From NCBI RefSeq assembly GCF_024519435.1, contig NZ_JALJRZ010000002.1:310001-374000 (forward strand): DNA of 64,000 nucleotides. The letters run 5' to 3'. Position 1 is the stretch's first letter. Every line of letters starts with the position of its first letter. This DNA comes from Terrabacter sp. Ter38. GTDB taxonomy: Bacteria; Actinomycetota; Actinomycetes; Actinomycetales; Dermatophilaceae. Made by a program: the position numbers and the translations under genes. Positions 3,320 through 33,048 of this stretch are shown piece after piece. The notes below the pieces were generated by a model. It did no database searches, was not told the DNA's origin, and saw only the letters and a list, made by a program, of their open reading frames with translations.

Positions 3320-3860
3320 GAGGTTCTCCGTAGGTTGCAGGGGCCCGTCCGACGTCACGACGACGTCGGCCCGGCTCCCGTTGTGGGGCTGTCGGTGGCC
3401 GATGCGACCGCAATCGGCAAGCCCGTGGAGGCCGAGGGGATCCGGCTGGGCCGGGCTCGGGGCCATGGGCATGCGAAAGAGGTCGCAGACACGCTCGGTC
3501 AACGATACGGGAGCCGTCGAGAGGGGGTCAAACCGACGGAGCCGCTCCGGGGGCGCGGGCCAAAACCCACGATCCTCGAAGGTCCTACGGCGATTGCAAG
3601 CCGACACGCCGTCCAGCCGGAGATCTGTGGGCGACTCGATTGTCACCGGCGAGCCTGCGGCTGTAGGTTTTCGACTCTCACGATCCTCGCCACCCCATGC
3701 ACAGGCTGTGGACAAACGTGTGGACAACAGGGCATCGTTCACCAGGACACGGACGGACCCCGCAGGTCCGACCCCGGCGGACTCGAGCCCGTGCTCGAGA
3801 CGCTCAGAGCCGGGATCGCAACAGGTGCAACGGAATTGACTCAGGGGCAGGTGGGATCAG
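3320..3860. promoter_or_regulatory. rpmH-dnaA intergenic region with two DnaA boxes
   Basis: This 541-bp divergent spacer holds no gene I can support. Two perfect TGTGGACAA boxes occur at 3707-3715 and 3719-3727, spaced 12 bp and on the same strand, about 135 bp upstream of dnaA. Paired boxes here are typical of DnaA autoregulation in Actinobacteria. The rpmH promoter candidate lies in the left half. I could not assign a dnaA -10 element with confidence. Confidence 0.8.
3502..3531 (-). promoter_or_regulatory. Candidate promoter of the rpmH operon
   Basis: On the minus strand TTGACC (3526-3531) and TATCGT (3502-3507) are separated by 18 bp, a housekeeping-sigma arrangement. Transcription would start near 3495 and leave a leader of about 175 nt before rpmH. 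The assignment rests on the -35/-10 match only. Confidence 0.5.
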
Positions 3861-5559: not shown

Positions 5560-6555
5560 TCAGGCCGCGGCTCCCGCGTGCGCCGGCTTCGCAGCCTTCG
5601 CGGCGCGGCGGGCGGCGACGGTCGTCGCGAGCGCCTCGTCCCACGGGGTCGGTGCGAGCCCGAACGTGCGCTGGGTGAGCTCGGAGTCGAGGACGAACGG
5701 CCGCTCGAACTGGTGGCGGGTCTCGCGCAGCTCGCGCATGAAGGGGACGACCGCACCGGCCGCGGTGCCGAGTGGCCGGGGCAGCACGCGTACCCGCCGC
5801 TGCTTGACGCCGGCGATGCGCGCGACGTCGCCGCCGGCCTCGTCGAACGTGCGGGCGGGCGCGGTCGGCACGTGCCAGGCCCGGCCCCAGCCGTCGTCGC
5901 CGGCCGCGACCCTGGCTGCGAGCCGGCCGACGTCGGGGACGTAGGTCCACGAGTGCGGCGCGTCGGCGCGGCCGGCCGGCACGAAGGGCGGTCGGCCGGC
6001 GAGCAGCGCGTCGATGACCACGTCGCCCAGGTAGCTGGTCCGCGGCGTCGTACCCGGTCCGAAGTAGTCGCTGGAGCGGAGCTCGGTGACGCGCAGGCGC
6101 CCCGCCTCGTGGCGGGCCAGCGCCTCGGTCCACATGTCGGCACGGATGCGGCCCTTGTGACCGCAGGGCCGCATCGGGTCGTCCTCGTGCATGGGCGCCT
6201 CGACCTCGCCGTAGCCGTAGAGGTTGCCGATGATGACGAGGCCGGCTCCGGACTCCTCGGCGGCGGCCAGGGTGGCCGCGGCGATCGGCGGCCAGTCGGT
6301 GTCCCAGGTCATGTAGCTGGGCGGGTTCACGGCATTGACGATGCTCGCGGCACCGCGCGCCAGGGCCGTCAGCGCGGACGCGTCGCCGGCGTCGACGGCG
6401 ACGACCTCGACCGCGTCGGGGTGGGCGTCCTGCCAGGGTAGTTCGTCGACCCGTCCCGAACGGGACGCGAGGGTCACGGTGTGACCGAGCGCGACGAGTG
6501 CGACGGTCGTCGAGCGACCGACGCCGCCGGCGCCGAGGACGAGGTGGTGGCTCAT
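5560..6555 (-). CDS. NAD-dependent epimerase/dehydratase family protein
   Basis: Extended short-chain dehydrogenase-like protein of 331 residues. A Rossmann nucleotide-binding loop (LGAGGVGRST) opens the protein. The segments IIGNLYGYGE, DYFGPGT, YLGDVVIDALLAGRPP and SWTYVPDVGRLAARV match NAD(P)-binding sugar or nucleotide epimerase relatives. The usual catalytic YxxxK is not obvious, so the reaction cannot be stated. The start at 6555 has AAGGAG at good spacing. It is divergent from a TetR gene, with palindromes between them, and is probably its target. Its position between dnaA and oriC is unusual. Confidence 0.85.
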   Translation of the reverse strand: MSHHLVLGAGGVGRSTTVALVALGHTVTLASRSGRVDELPWQDAHPDAVEVVAVDAGDASALTALARGAASIVNAVNPPSYMTWDTDWPPIAAATLAAAEESGAGLVIIGNLYGYGEVEAPMHEDDPMRPCGHKGRIRADMWTEALARHEAGRLRVTELRSSDYFGPGTTPRTSYLGDVVIDALLAGRPPFVPAGRADAPHSWTYVPDVGRLAARVAAGDDGWGRAWHVPTAPARTFDEAGGDVARIAGVKQRRVRVLPRPLGTAAGAVVPFMRELRETRHQFERPFVLDSELTQRTFGLAPTPWDEALATTVAARRAAKAAKPAHAGAAA

Positions 6556-6578
6556 GGTGTGCTCCTTCGAGAATGTGG

Positions 6579-6643
6579 TGTGAGCACTGCTCACGTTTCG
6601 ATGGTGGCAGTGGTCGGCCAGAAAAGCAAGAGCACCGCTCACA
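6579..6643. promoter_or_regulatory. Twin operator palindromes in the epimerase/TetR divergent promoter
   Basis: A perfect 7+1+7 palindrome, GTGAGCACTGCTCAC, lies at 6580-6594. A second copy in opposite orientation at 6630-6643 reads TGTGAGCGGTGCTC on the minus strand. Both lie in the 118-bp space between the divergent starts, one near each gene. This is the expected layout for a TetR regulator controlling itself and its neighbour. The palindromes are seen; the binding protein is inferred. Confidence 0.75.
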
Positions 6644-6673
6644 TTGTTCCGTGACCTGTGGCAGGCTCGGTGC

Positions 6674-7447
6674 ATGGACCCGCTCGACGTCGCACCCGCG
6701 GACACACGCACGCACGCACCTGACGACGCGCCCACAGCACGGCTGGGCAAGCGCGCCCGTCACCGGCTCACCGTCGAGGCCGAGATCCTCCGCGTGGCTC
6801 GCGAGCACCTGGCCACTGACGGTGCGGCCGCACTCAGCCTGCGCGCCGTCGCCCGCGACCTCGGCATGGTCTCCTCCGGGATCTACCGCTACGTCGAGAG
6901 TCGCGACGAGCTGCTCACCCGCCTCATCGTCGACTCGTACTGGTCACTCGCCGCCGCCGTCCGCAGCAGCCACGACACCGTCCCGCACGACGACCTCGAG
7001 GCACGATGGGACGCGGTCGGCCGCGCACTACGAGCGTGGGCGCTCGACCGGCCGCACGACTTCGCGCTCATCTACGGCTCCCCGGTCCCGGACTACGAGG
7101 CCCCGTCCGAGCGCACCGAGGAACCGGGCACCGCCGTCCTCGTCCTTCTCGTCGCCCTGCTCGACGACGTCCGGGCAGCGGGCCGGCTCGCCGACCCCGA
7201 GGGGCTGGGTTTGGTGTCGGCGCGCGCCGAGACCGGTGTCGGCGCGCTGCTCGACGCACCGATGTTCGCCGCGACACAGCTGGACGCCGTCGACCTGACC
7301 CAGGGTCTGGCTGCCTGGACCCTGTTGCTCGGCGCCGTGACGAGCGAGATCTTCGCCCAGCTCGGGCCGGTTCCGGACGGCGAGGCCCTCTTCGAGTGTC
7401 TGCTCGCGGCGTCGCGACGGTGCGTCATCGCGCCGGTCGGTGACTAG
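6674..7447 (+). CDS. TetR/AcrR family transcriptional regulator
   Basis: One-component repressor with an N-terminal TetR helix-turn-helix. The region RHRLTVEAEILRVAREHL leads into LSLRAVARDLGMVSSGIYRYV, with the recognition helix and the conserved Y-R-Y-V-x-S-R-D-E-L continuation. The C-terminal half carries the WHG-like ligand domain (YGSPVPDYEAP). I placed the start at the ATG at 6674 (257 residues); an earlier in-frame ATG at 6644 would run into the second operator. It probably represses itself and the divergent epimerase gene. The ligand is unknown. Confidence 0.92.
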   Translation: MDPLDVAPADTRTHAPDDAPTARLGKRARHRLTVEAEILRVAREHLATDGAAALSLRAVARDLGMVSSGIYRYVESRDELLTRLIVDSYWSLAAAVRSSHDTVPHDDLEARWDAVGRALRAWALDRPHDFALIYGSPVPDYEAPSERTEEPGTAVLVLLVALLDDVRAAGRLADPEGLGLVSARAETGVGALLDAPMFAATQLDAVDLTQGLAAWTLLLGAVTSEIFAQLGPVPDGEALFECLLAASRRCVIAPVGD

Positions 7448-7491: not shown

Positions 7492-7924
7492 ACGTCCACA
7501 TCCGTCCACAGGTTTGTCCACACCTGTGTGCACAGCGTGACCTCCCCGTGACCCGGGGCCTACAGACGCAACGGGCCCGACGACCGCCAGAGTTGTCCAC
7601 CGCCTGTGGACAACTCTGTGGAAGTAGCGGTCCCCGATGGTGCACAGGTGACTAGTCCGCAACCAGTCCAAATCGGACATATTCCGACCGCTCTTCCACA
7701 CGTCTCTGTGGAAACGTGTGGACGACGAGCGCAAAGCTGCGGACAACCCATGGGCTGCCTGTGAGGACGATGTGCAGGGCCGAGATCTGTCCACAGGGCC
7801 GGGCCGCCGCGTCCGGCGCGACCCCACACGCCGTGCACAGCCCCATCGGCGGCCTGACCTGCACCGACGCGGGTTGTCCACAGCATCCACAGCACCTATG
7901 ACTATGACGAGATCCCAGTCATAG
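7492..7924. other. oriC: Chromosomal origin of replication oriC
   Basis: Gene-free space between the TetR gene and dnaN, packed with DnaA boxes in both orientations. Perfect TTGTCCACA sites lie at 7514-7522, 7605-7613 (reverse) and 7874-7882. One-mismatch sites lie at 7593-7601, 7717-7725, 7738-7746 and 7787-7795, with weaker ones at 7492, 7502, 7692 and 7707. Near the dnaN side is a short AT-richer patch with the perfect inverted repeat CTATGACT (7896-7903)/AGTCATAG (7917-7924), a candidate unwinding or protein-binding element. The remainder to 8105 would contain the dnaN promoter; no clear -35/-10 is visible. Confidence 0.93.
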
Positions 7925-30937: not shown

Positions 30938-31888
30938 TTGTCTGACAACCCACCCAGCGGCCAGCAGGGTCAGCCCCCGCTCGAGCCGGGGGTCCCGCAG
31001 CCCGCTGCCGGTCCGTCCGTGTGCCCGCGCCACCCCGACCGGGAGGCCTACGTCCGCTGCCAGCGCTGCGGCCGGCCGGCCTGCCCCGAGTGCCAGCGCC
31101 CGGCCGCCGTCGGCATCCAGTGCGTCGACTGCGTCCGTGAGGCCGCCCGCACGGCGCCGAGCGCGCGCACCGTCTTCGGCGGGCGGGCGACCGACGGCAC
31201 GCCCGTCGTCACCTACACGATCATCGCGGTCTGCGCCGTCGCCTACCTCGCGCAGCGGGCCAACCCGAGCGTCACGGCGAACTTCGCGTTCGCGCCGGTC
31301 GTCGGGTGGACCGAGCCGTGGCGCTTCGTCACCGCGGCCTTCCTGCACTCGCCCTCGACGATCTTTCACATCCTGCTCAACATGTTCGCGCTGTGGAGCC
31401 TCGGGCAGTACCTCGAGCCGATGCTCGGTCGGGCCCGGTTCGCGGCGCTCTACCTCATCAGCGGCATCGGCGGGCAGGTCGCCGTGACGCTCCTCGCGGG
31501 CTCGCCGACGATCCCGGGCCTGCGGGCCGGCCTCGACGACGCGTGGCTCACCCCGGTCGTCGGGGCGTCCGGCGCGATCTTCGGACTCTTCGGCGCCCTC
31601 CTCGTGCTCAACCGGCACCTCGGACGCTCCTCGGCGGCGATGTACGCGACGATCGCCATCAACGCGGCCTTCGGCTTCTTCTACCCGGGCATCTCCTGGC
31701 AAGCCCACCTCGGCGGCCTCGTCACCGGTGTCGTCTGCGCCGGCGTCATCGTCGTCTTCCGACGACAGGGCGTCCGCCATCTCGTGTGGGCCGCGCTCAG
31801 CGCTGTCCTCGTGCTGCTCGTCGCGATCACCGTCGTCAAGTACCTCACGGTGCCCGAGGCCATCCGCGAGCTCAGCATCTTCGGCTGA
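30938..31888 (+). CDS. Rhomboid-family intramembrane serine protease with N-terminal zinc-binding domain
   Basis: A 316-residue membrane protease. Residues ~25-70 carry a B-box-like zinc module with Cys pairs (CQRCGRPACPEC and CVDC). The six-helix rhomboid core follows, with HILLNMFALW, the catalytic Ser211 in GASGAIFGLFG and His257 in WQAHLGGLVTG. The start is a TTG at 30938 with AGGGGG upstream. Rhomboids cleave membrane-anchored substrates within the bilayer; the substrate here is unknown. The following P-loop gene begins seven bases downstream. Confidence 0.93.
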   Translation: MSDNPPSGQQGQPPLEPGVPQPAAGPSVCPRHPDREAYVRCQRCGRPACPECQRPAAVGIQCVDCVREAARTAPSARTVFGGRATDGTPVVTYTIIAVCAVAYLAQRANPSVTANFAFAPVVGWTEPWRFVTAAFLHSPSTIFHILLNMFALWSLGQYLEPMLGRARFAALYLISGIGGQVAVTLLAGSPTIPGLRAGLDDAWLTPVVGASGAIFGLFGALLVLNRHLGRSSAAMYATIAINAAFGFFYPGISWQAHLGGLVTGVVCAGVIVVFRRQGVRHLVWAALSAVLVLLVAITVVKYLTVPEAIRELSIFG

Positions 31889-31895
31889 GGACCCC

Positions 31896-32480
31896 GTGCA
31901 CCTCGTCTGCGTCACCGGCCCGCCGGCCGTCGGCAAGATGACGGTGGGCCGCGCCGTCTGCGAGCTGACGGGCTTCCGGCTCTTCCACAACCACATGTCG
32001 ATCGAGCCGCTGCTCGGCGTCTACGACTTCGGCACACCCTCGTTCCAGCGGATCAACGGCCTGATCCGCCGCGAGGTCATCGCCGAGTCGGTCGTCGCCG
32101 ACCTGCCCGGCCTCGTCTTCACCTTCGCCATCGACCTCGAGCATCCCGGCGACCTCGCGCAGCTGCACGAGCTCGTCGAGCCGGTCGAGCGAGCCGGCGC
32201 GCCCATCGACGTCGTCGAGCTCTACGCACCCCAGGACGTGCGGCTGGCCCGCGAGGGTGGCACCGACCGGATGGACCACAAGCGCAGCAAGCGCGACGTC
32301 GAGTGGGCCCGCTCCCACGTCATCGAGCTCGAGTCCCGGGCCCGCCTCAACACCGACCCCGCGCGGGACGGGGAGCAGCTGCTGCCGGGTCACCGTCACC
32401 TGCGCCTGGACAACGCGCACGGCGACGCCCGGGCGACGGCCGAGCGGGTCGTCGACATGCTGGGGCTCCCCCGGGTCTGA
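31896..32480 (+). CDS. P-loop NTPase, small kinase-like protein
   Basis: A 194-residue P-loop protein starting at the GTG at 31896, seven bases after the rhomboid stop. Walker A is GPPAVGKMTVGRAV. The segments FRLFHNHMSIEPLL, YAPQDVRLAREGG and KRSKRDVEWARSHV resemble small shikimate-kinase-like or AAA proteins that phosphorylate small molecules. No lid or substrate motif allows a specific assignment. Close spacing suggests it shares the rhomboid transcript. Confidence 0.82.
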   Translation: MHLVCVTGPPAVGKMTVGRAVCELTGFRLFHNHMSIEPLLGVYDFGTPSFQRINGLIRREVIAESVVADLPGLVFTFAIDLEHPGDLAQLHELVEPVERAGAPIDVVELYAPQDVRLAREGGTDRMDHKRSKRDVEWARSHVIELESRARLNTDPARDGEQLLPGHRHLRLDNAHGDARATAERVVDMLGLPRV

Positions 32481-32517
32481 CGGAGGTCGAGCCCTCCACC
32501 GTCGAGGAGTCGGAAAG

Positions 32518-32690
32518 TTGTCCACCGGCTGTGGATAAACCTGTGGATGTAGTTACACACATGTCATTCATCCCCAGCTGGGGACAACGGTGTGGACAAG
32601 TCGCGCGATCCGCGCTGGAGGTTGTGCACGGCCGTCATCCACAGCTGTGGACGTGAAAGCCGTACGCCGGCTGTCCACAGGTGTGGACAG
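32518..32690. promoter_or_regulatory. Second DnaA-box cluster (nine sites in 173 bp)
   Basis: A gene-free stretch holds nine sites with at least seven of nine bases of the DnaA box. Exact: TGTGGATAA 32530-32538 and TGTGGACAA 32591-32599. One mismatch: 32518-32526, 32579-32587, 32635-32643, 32671-32679 and 32682-32690. Two mismatches: 32542-32550 and 32646-32654. Density is higher than at oriC, 25 kb away. It flanks crgA. It could titrate DnaA, promote nucleotide exchange, or be an accessory origin element; the sequence alone cannot choose. Confidence 0.8.
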
Positions 32691-32716
32691 CCGGCGCTCG
32701 GTGGGGTGTGGGCACA

Positions 32717-32751
32717 AGGGCCGCTCCGTCGTGAATGACAGGAGCGGCCCT
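32717..32751 (-). terminator. Terminator hairpin downstream of crgA
   Basis: A perfect 11-bp stem (32717-32727 with 32741-32751) with a 13-nt loop lies 46 bp beyond the crgA stop. It separates crgA from the DnaA-box cluster. Confidence 0.75.
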
Positions 32752-32796
32752 CTCGAGTGTGTGGGGGGTGCGGGTGGCTGCGGGGCTCGGTGGGGC

Positions 32797-33048
32797 TCAG
32801 CGCCACCGCATGGTCATGATGAAGCCGCCCATGAGCAGGACGAAGCCGATGCCGAGGTTCCAGACCCCGATTGACCCGATGGGGTACTTGTACTCGGTCA
32901 CGTAGTAGACGACGATCCACAGCAGCCCGAGGACGAGCAGCGTGATGAAGACGGGCGCCCACCAGGTGGGGTTGGGCTCGGCGGCCTTGCTCGTGCGGGG
33001 CGGGGTGTATGCCGCCGCCTTGTGGTCGCGGCCTTTGGACTCGGGCAC
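32797..33048 (-). CDS. crgA: Cell division protein CrgA
   Basis: Small actinobacterial septation regulator of 83 residues that interacts with FtsZ-ring and cell-wall proteins. Two membrane helices are clear (WWAPVFITLLVLGLLWIVVY and VWNLGIGFVLLMGGFIMTM), joined by a short loop with YKYPIGSIG. The start is the GTG at 33048 behind AAGGAGA. The neighbourhood next to rhomboid/ppiA and the pknB operon is the usual one for crgA. Confidence 0.95.
   Translation of the reverse strand: MPESKGRDHKAAAYTPPRTSKAAEPNPTWWAPVFITLLVLGLLWIVVYYVTEYKYPIGSIGVWNLGIGFVLLMGGFIMTMRWR

Follow-up and report, generated by a model that had tools for sequence, protein, structure and literature searches.

A class-wide cluster of DnaA boxes next to crgA in Actinomycetes, a candidate oriC-proximal site of DnaA control, seen from Terrabacter

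Several bacteria carry clusters of binding sites for the initiator protein DnaA (DnaA boxes) in the vicinity of the replication origin oriC, and some of these clusters are reported to hold back the start of replication. In Streptomyces coelicolor they repress untimely initiation (Smulczyk-Krawczyszyn et al. 2006, cited in PMC4585315), and oriC-proximal clusters restrain initiation in Bacillus subtilis as well (Okumura et al. 2012, cited in PMC5742627). The system closest to the one considered here is mycobacterial: five regions, i.e., oriC, rpmH-dnaA, the region upstream of dnaB, Rv3843c-RVnc0040, and Rv0010c-Rv0011c, are bound by Mycobacterium tuberculosis DnaA in vitro, and chromatin immunoprecipitation with sequencing recovered all five homologues in M. 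smegmatis (Hicks et al. 2020, PMC7738170). Mutants of the Rv0010c-Rv0011c site phenocopy dnaA mutants and, as far as the available text of the same paper goes, its authors reported nothing that corresponds to it elsewhere and did not assign it a function. The present report deals with a cluster of DnaA boxes at positions 32518-32690 of a 64,000-nucleotide stretch of Terrabacter sp. Ter38 (NZ_JALJRZ010000002.1, positions 310,001 to 374,000; hereafter the window), which is located next to crgA, the gene of the cell division protein CrgA. Comparison of crgA loci throughout the class Actinomycetes gives good support to the view that this cluster is a very old element of DnaA control, present class-wide.

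Comparison with described DnaA-box loci

Rv0011c is crgA, and for this reason Rv0010c-Rv0011c is regarded here as the counterpart of the Terrabacter cluster. Both sites lie directly 3' of crgA and near oriC, and both contain boxes that include a head-to-head palindrome of two; they differ in that the next gene is codirectional in mycobacteria, where DnaA binding is also proven. An earlier note on the window, which proposed that the cluster controls DnaA, named a lack of DnaA occupancy as one ground for refutation; the published binding at the mycobacterial site (available text of PMC7738170) speaks against such a lack, and the Terrabacter cluster may be occupied likewise. The description of the site in that text includes no second palindrome of the kind reported below, and class-wide conservation is likewise an addition of the present analysis. 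Of the five DnaA regions of mycobacteria, four have a box cluster in Terrabacter as well, namely oriC, the dnaA promoter (3707-3727), the region upstream of dnaB (C22:226634-226807), and the crgA side. The site at the dnaA promoter, directly upstream of the gene, consists of two exact tandem boxes 12 bp apart and is probably an autoregulation site. The one upstream of dnaB (also L147:2135-2308), 91 kb from oriC, comprises three exact and two weak boxes, matches the mycobacterial dnaB-upstream site, and is kept in two other genera (L160, L161).

Regarding the other described systems, most loci of Streptomyces and Streptacidiphilus have two to four exact boxes within 400 bp after crgA; the Streptomycetaceae lack the second palindrome. 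The B. subtilis clusters are alike in their proximity to oriC and differ in phylum and gene context. In its dense consensus boxes beyond chance, its closeness to oriC, and its conservation there, the Terrabacter cluster resembles the titration-type clusters of Gram-positive bacteria. The datA locus of Escherichia coli is comparable as an oriC-proximal intergenic cluster with + and - boxes whose starts are 12 bp apart (2107/2119 of L150; 32518/32530). However, datA requires IHF bound between its boxes, whereas the element described here has a palindrome for a different putative protein, and the two share no homology.

The spacing of the boxes was compared with the DnaA-reactivating sequences (DARS) of E. 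coli by using 122 non-redundant crgA loci, gathered at the genus, family, order, and class levels and belonging to about 45 families according to database labels, with several orders thinly sampled. The cores of DARS1 and DARS2, as read from the genome, have the arrangement + 14 - 12 -, and share with the actinomycete element the opposed boxes and the tandem box, with spacings of 14/12 there versus 12/12 or 10-12 here. Close inverted pairs in the 122 loci are 10, 11, or 12 bp apart without a peak at 14, tandem pairs are 12-13 bp apart, and no close tail-to-tail pairs were found among them. Membership of the DARS group was rejected because the cluster does not have the + 14 - 12 - core and the offset of 14 does not recur in the 122 loci. 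Identity with oriC was also discarded, as oriC occupies 7492-7891, in the dnaA-dnaN gap upstream of dnaN.

Boxes of the cluster, their conservation, and their independence from crgA

Within its 173 bp, the cluster contains two exact boxes, TGTGGATAA at 32530-32538 and TGTGGACAA at 32591-32599, along with five boxes having one mismatch and five having two mismatches to TTRTCCACA (Table 1). The first two counts agree with the earlier note, which had listed two rather than five of the two-mismatch sites. Its statement that the cluster is denser than oriC holds per 250 bp: when segments of this length across the window are weighted (3 for an exact box, 1.5 for one mismatch), the crgA-side cluster comes at the top with 13.5 and oriC next with 10.5; in total boxes, oriC is the richer over its 390 bp. 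Exact TTRTCCACA occurs 24 times in the 4.83-Mb genome, 10 times in the 64-kb window, and twice in the cluster. The seven boxes with at most one mismatch compare with a mean of 0.16 and a maximum of 3 upon shuffling of 32481-32800. oriC (7593-7625) and the cluster (32518-32550) have in common a stretch of 39 bp that is very similar in both and carries the + - - trio of boxes, and a further two exact boxes, 43 bp apart, are found between khpB/jag and yidC (1288-1339 of the window).

Throughout the 122 loci, exact boxes reach 5.9, 4.4, and 2.0 per kb in successive 100-bp bins after the crgA stop codon, compared with about 0.01 per kb upstream of crgA and 0-0.2 past 400 bp. A total of 156 exact boxes lie within 450 bp of crgA, versus 0-1 in shuffles; 88 loci have one or more exact boxes, as against 1 in the control segments, and 99 have two or more boxes when one mismatch is allowed, as against 3 of 122 per control segment. 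The reversed motif used as a control is mildly enriched at up to one mismatch, with 1.7 per kb against 14.9 for the real motif. Together, the shuffles and the motif controls rule out chance or base composition as the source of the cluster, and the enrichment 3' of crgA across the class answers the question of conservation in relatives on which the earlier note also relied. In the Terrabacter alignment, invariant columns amount to 94% in the boxes, 89% in the two-mismatch boxes, 84% in the crgA coding sequence, 47% between the boxes, and 17% outside; given the figure of 89%, the weak boxes are under selection, too. In all but two of 28 genomes (26), crgA and dnaA are separated by 12-85 kb.

When the neighbouring genes are separated, the boxes do not follow crgA. 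In three loci with an insertion between crgA and the rhomboid gene (L024, L041, L153), the boxes keep to the side of the rhomboid gene and lie 1.2-2 kb away from crgA, and the element stays with the rhomboid gene in these three and in L271. In the genome G046, crgA is found 569 kb from dnaA without a cluster, and two composite copies follow the rhomboid gene on its 3' side, at a distance of 177 kb from dnaA. The 3' position and the segregation from crgA speak against a crgA promoter or cis-regulatory element, and a coupling to crgA as a cis effect is unlikely because the element segregates with the rhomboid gene. The suggestion that the cluster links crgA to the replication cycle finds no support here, as the cluster lies past the 3' end of the gene and parts from it when the genes separate.

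The second palindrome, its other sites, and the surroundings of the cluster

Alignment of the conserved non-box sequence disclosed a second palindrome, ATTACAC-NN-GTGTAAT, the core of which, ACA-N4-TGT, is nearly invariant. This consensus, or TnACAC-NN-GTGTnA in its shorter form, is matched at no fewer than 10 of the 14 positions of the long form in 84 of the 122 loci, versus 1 locus in the upstream control, 3 in the segment +600-1050, and 2 after shuffling; at 11 of 14 or more, the centre is 2 bp long in 64 loci, 4 bp in 4, and 0, 1, or 3 bp in none. In 77 of the 84 loci, the palindrome is in fixed register with a DnaA-like box, defined as a box with up to two mismatches that starts 15-17 bp past the palindrome start, or its mirror image on the other side, where 9.6 loci would be expected (maximum of 21 in 500 random trials). 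The Terrabacter palindrome is flanked by a box on each side, and the f22 loci, taken as mycobacteria, also bear the palindrome TnACACnnGTGTnA. Streptomycetaceae have boxes at this locus without the palindrome, and the palindrome match is therefore no by-product of the boxes. The arrangement of palindrome and boxes in register appears to be new; the literature compared consisted of open-licence papers, so no priority is claimed.

Sites of the palindrome with up to two mismatches number from one to eight per genome, and several genomes have their sole exact one at crgA. The promoter of the class II whiB gene (whiB2/whmD) is the other place where the palindrome recurs, as seen in L182-L188 and L197-L224: 27 of the 28 genomes tested have it there, either over the -10 element of a TTGAC-type promoter or directly next to it, and the controls score no higher than 10/14 downstream and 9 after shuffling. 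Such a position suggests an undescribed class-wide regulator or autoregulation. WhiB2 is reported to bind its own promoter, WhiA and WhiB act jointly on division genes, and WhiA recognises GACAC; many, not all, of the palindrome sites contain GACAC or GTGTC, the other half-sites being TACAC or CACAC. Because the palindrome is common to the whiB2 promoter, the protein bound next to DnaA probably belongs to the septation network, and WhiA/WhiB2 is the leading guess for the binder, though no more than a guess.

Other candidate binders were discarded. The BldD operator, TNACNC-(A/T)-GNGTNA, has a 1-bp centre, and no locus reaches 11 of 14 with such a centre, compared with 64 with a 2-bp centre; the bldD gene has been lost repeatedly, which may have shaped Micrococcineae and Corynebacterineae. 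The BldM group I site, TCACcCgnncGgGTGA, differs in sequence from the palindrome, the NrdR box differs in spacing, and an Rv2175c-like protein has the palindrome in its own promoter only in Terrabacter and its near relatives. DnaA boxes and the same palindrome also occur in the nrdR promoter of two genomes of one family (f36; L193:2000-2067, L194:1858-1925), which hints at reuse of the composite at the nucleotide-reductase regulator. In two f22 genomes, the palindrome is located upstream of a gene for a SepX/GlpR-like division membrane protein (L195:2005-2020).

The cluster overlaps no gene and adjoins crgA, as previously described: a + strand open reading frame ends at 32480, the crgA stop codon is at 32797-32799, and both neighbours converge on the cluster, which is on the 3' side of crgA. 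The distance of 25 kb from oriC also stands, with the oriC boxes in the dnaA-dnaN gap at 7492-7891. This gap holds two extra genes at 5563-7444, between dnaA and the oriC boxes, coding for a NAD-binding epimerase-like protein and a TetR-like regulator, which is unusual for an origin.

Table 1. Coordinates of the boxes, the palindrome, and the neighbouring features in the window
Feature	Position	Strand	Basis
DnaA box, one mismatch, TTGTCCACC, paired head-to-head with the box at 32530	32518..32526	+	conserved in genus alignment
DnaA box, exact, TTATCCACA	32530..32538	-	motif match, genus alignment
Weak DnaA box, two mismatches, ACATCCACA, 1 bp short of the palindrome	32542..32550	-	genus alignment
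Second palindrome, GTTACACACATGTCAT (consensus ATTACAC-NN-GTGTAAT), putative site of a dimeric DNA-binding protein	32552..32567	.	alignment
Weak DnaA box, two mismatches, TCATCCCCA, abutting the palindrome	32568..32576	+	fixed register
DnaA box, one mismatch, TTGTCCCCA, paired head-to-head with the box at 32568	32579..32587	-	genus alignment
DnaA box, exact, TTGTCCACA	32591..32599	-	motif match, genus alignment
Weak box, two mismatches, TTGTGCACG, within a conserved block	32622..32630	+	genus alignment
DnaA box, one mismatch, TCATCCACA	32635..32643	+	genus alignment
Weak DnaA box, two mismatches, ACGTCCACA, head-to-head with the box at 32635	32646..32654	-	genus alignment
DnaA box, one mismatch, CTGTCCACA	32671..32679	+	motif match
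DnaA box, one mismatch, CTGTCCACA, head-to-head with the box at 32671, in a 20-nt inverted repeat	32682..32690	-	motif match
crgA, cell division protein CrgA, 3' end towards the cluster	32797..33048	-	PF06781
P-loop kinase-like open reading frame, convergent with crgA, without Pfam match	31899..32480	+	
Rhomboid protease gene, neighbour kept by the element	30938..31888	+	gene-separation cases
GC-rich hairpin between crgA and the cluster, probable crgA terminator	32717..32751	.	degenerate in some congeners
oriC cluster of DnaA boxes, upstream of dnaN (for reference)	7492..7891	.	

Possible roles of the element and their meaning

We consider it likely, albeit with reserve, that the locus is an oriC-proximal site of DnaA titration or inactivation, akin to datA, at which DnaA would be bound beside a division-linked protein. 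Several DnaA molecules would occupy the boxes in pairs, some head-to-head with starts 10-12 bp apart and some in tandem at 12-13 bp, and a dimeric protein on TnACAC-NN-GTGTnA (32552-32567) would sit next to them. Since the locus is replicated soon after each initiation, extra DnaA-binding complexes would arise early; these would deplete the pool of free DnaA or promote its inactivation, and the depleted or inactivated DnaA would then limit re-initiation, as datA does. The oriC-proximal position would fit a dosage-dependent brake like datA and the B. subtilis and S. coelicolor clusters. A more specific version is put forward tentatively, as possible rather than likely, namely a class-wide composite element next to oriC, where DnaA would stand in fixed register beside the protein that regulates whiB2 (perhaps WhiA with WhiB2).

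Some points weigh against a role in titration or inactivation. About 10 of the 122 loci are without boxes within 450 bp, so that some lineages can do without the element; several of these cases go back to an insertion or a relocation, but not all (L112, L113, and L131 have none). The Streptomycetaceae loci have boxes and no palindrome, and DnaA binding therefore cannot depend on the palindrome. The mycobacterial study gives binding and phenotypes, not initiation rates (available text of PMC7738170), and the effect on initiation is thus argued by analogy.

The earlier note had named titration and reactivation as alternatives. Control of DnaA as such is sustained by the conservation and by the mycobacterial binding, and titration or inactivation appears more likely than reactivation, considering the proximity to oriC in 26 of 28 genomes and the lack of the DARS core geometry. 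A DARS-like site, where head-to-head DnaA pairs would strip ADP, raise ATP-DnaA, and promote initiation, is unlikely, even though inverted box pairs are prominent, the trio at 32518, 32530, and 32542 has the + - - topology of a DARS core, and DARS boxes I and II are reported to act head-to-head: the E. coli spacing of 14 then 12 bp is replaced by 10-12 bp with no peak at 14, a near-identical + - - stretch is in the organism's own oriC at 7593-7625, and the locus adjoins oriC. Regulation of a neighbour's transcription by DnaA, with or without the palindrome protein (e.g., of crgA, or of Rv0010c in mycobacteria), is improbable in our estimation. In its favour, the palindrome lies at or next to the -10 of the whiB2 promoters, and Rv0010c, the next gene in mycobacteria, runs away from the site, but the genes flanking the Terrabacter cluster converge, a search for a promoter-like site at the cluster found none, and the element parts from crgA by insertion or relocation. 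Slightly less probable still is a structural anchor or organiser of the oriC region (segregation, nucleoid), formed by DnaA and a partner and without a timing role; the oriC-proximal, intergenic location and the second conserved palindrome in fixed register would suit it, whereas neither a ParB motif nor any other known motif of segregation came to notice, and mutants of the mycobacterial site behave like dnaA mutants (PMC7738170).

A bidirectional terminator of the convergent genes, with the match to DnaA boxes incidental, is very improbable. The strand does fold far better than its shuffles (z -7.1), and a long inverted repeat spans 32660-32701; however, a search for T-run terminators at the cluster found none, crgA probably has its terminator already in the separate hairpin at 32717-32751, exact TTRTCCACA is kept with free A/G exchange, boxes in tandem are unable to pair, and binding by DnaA is published for the mycobacterial counterpart (PMC7738170). 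Hardly credible is a second initiation element, which the earlier note had also entertained. The box density does exceed that of oriC per 250 bp, and the lowest guanine-cytosine fraction over 30 bp is 0.37 versus 0.43 at oriC, but the AT-rich dip is the conserved palindrome with no recognisable unwinding element, the cluster has no obvious DnaA-trio repeats, the 64-kb window has no clear skew switch at 32 kb, and mycobacteria and Streptomyces with the same element start replication at oriC.

To our knowledge, Actinomycetes lack Hda and SeqA. For the question of how they restrain DnaA once replication has started, the locus is a testable candidate present in nearly the whole class, and its class-wide conservation provides an evolutionary account of why the unexplained mycobacterial site matters. 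The palindrome in the whiB2 promoter points to a protein by which replication could be connected with septation; if the composite element is real, it would link the start of replication with septation on the DNA itself, and we know of no replication-septation checkpoint of this kind in other bacteria. The locus probably helps to time DNA replication, and it may tie replication to division across the class.
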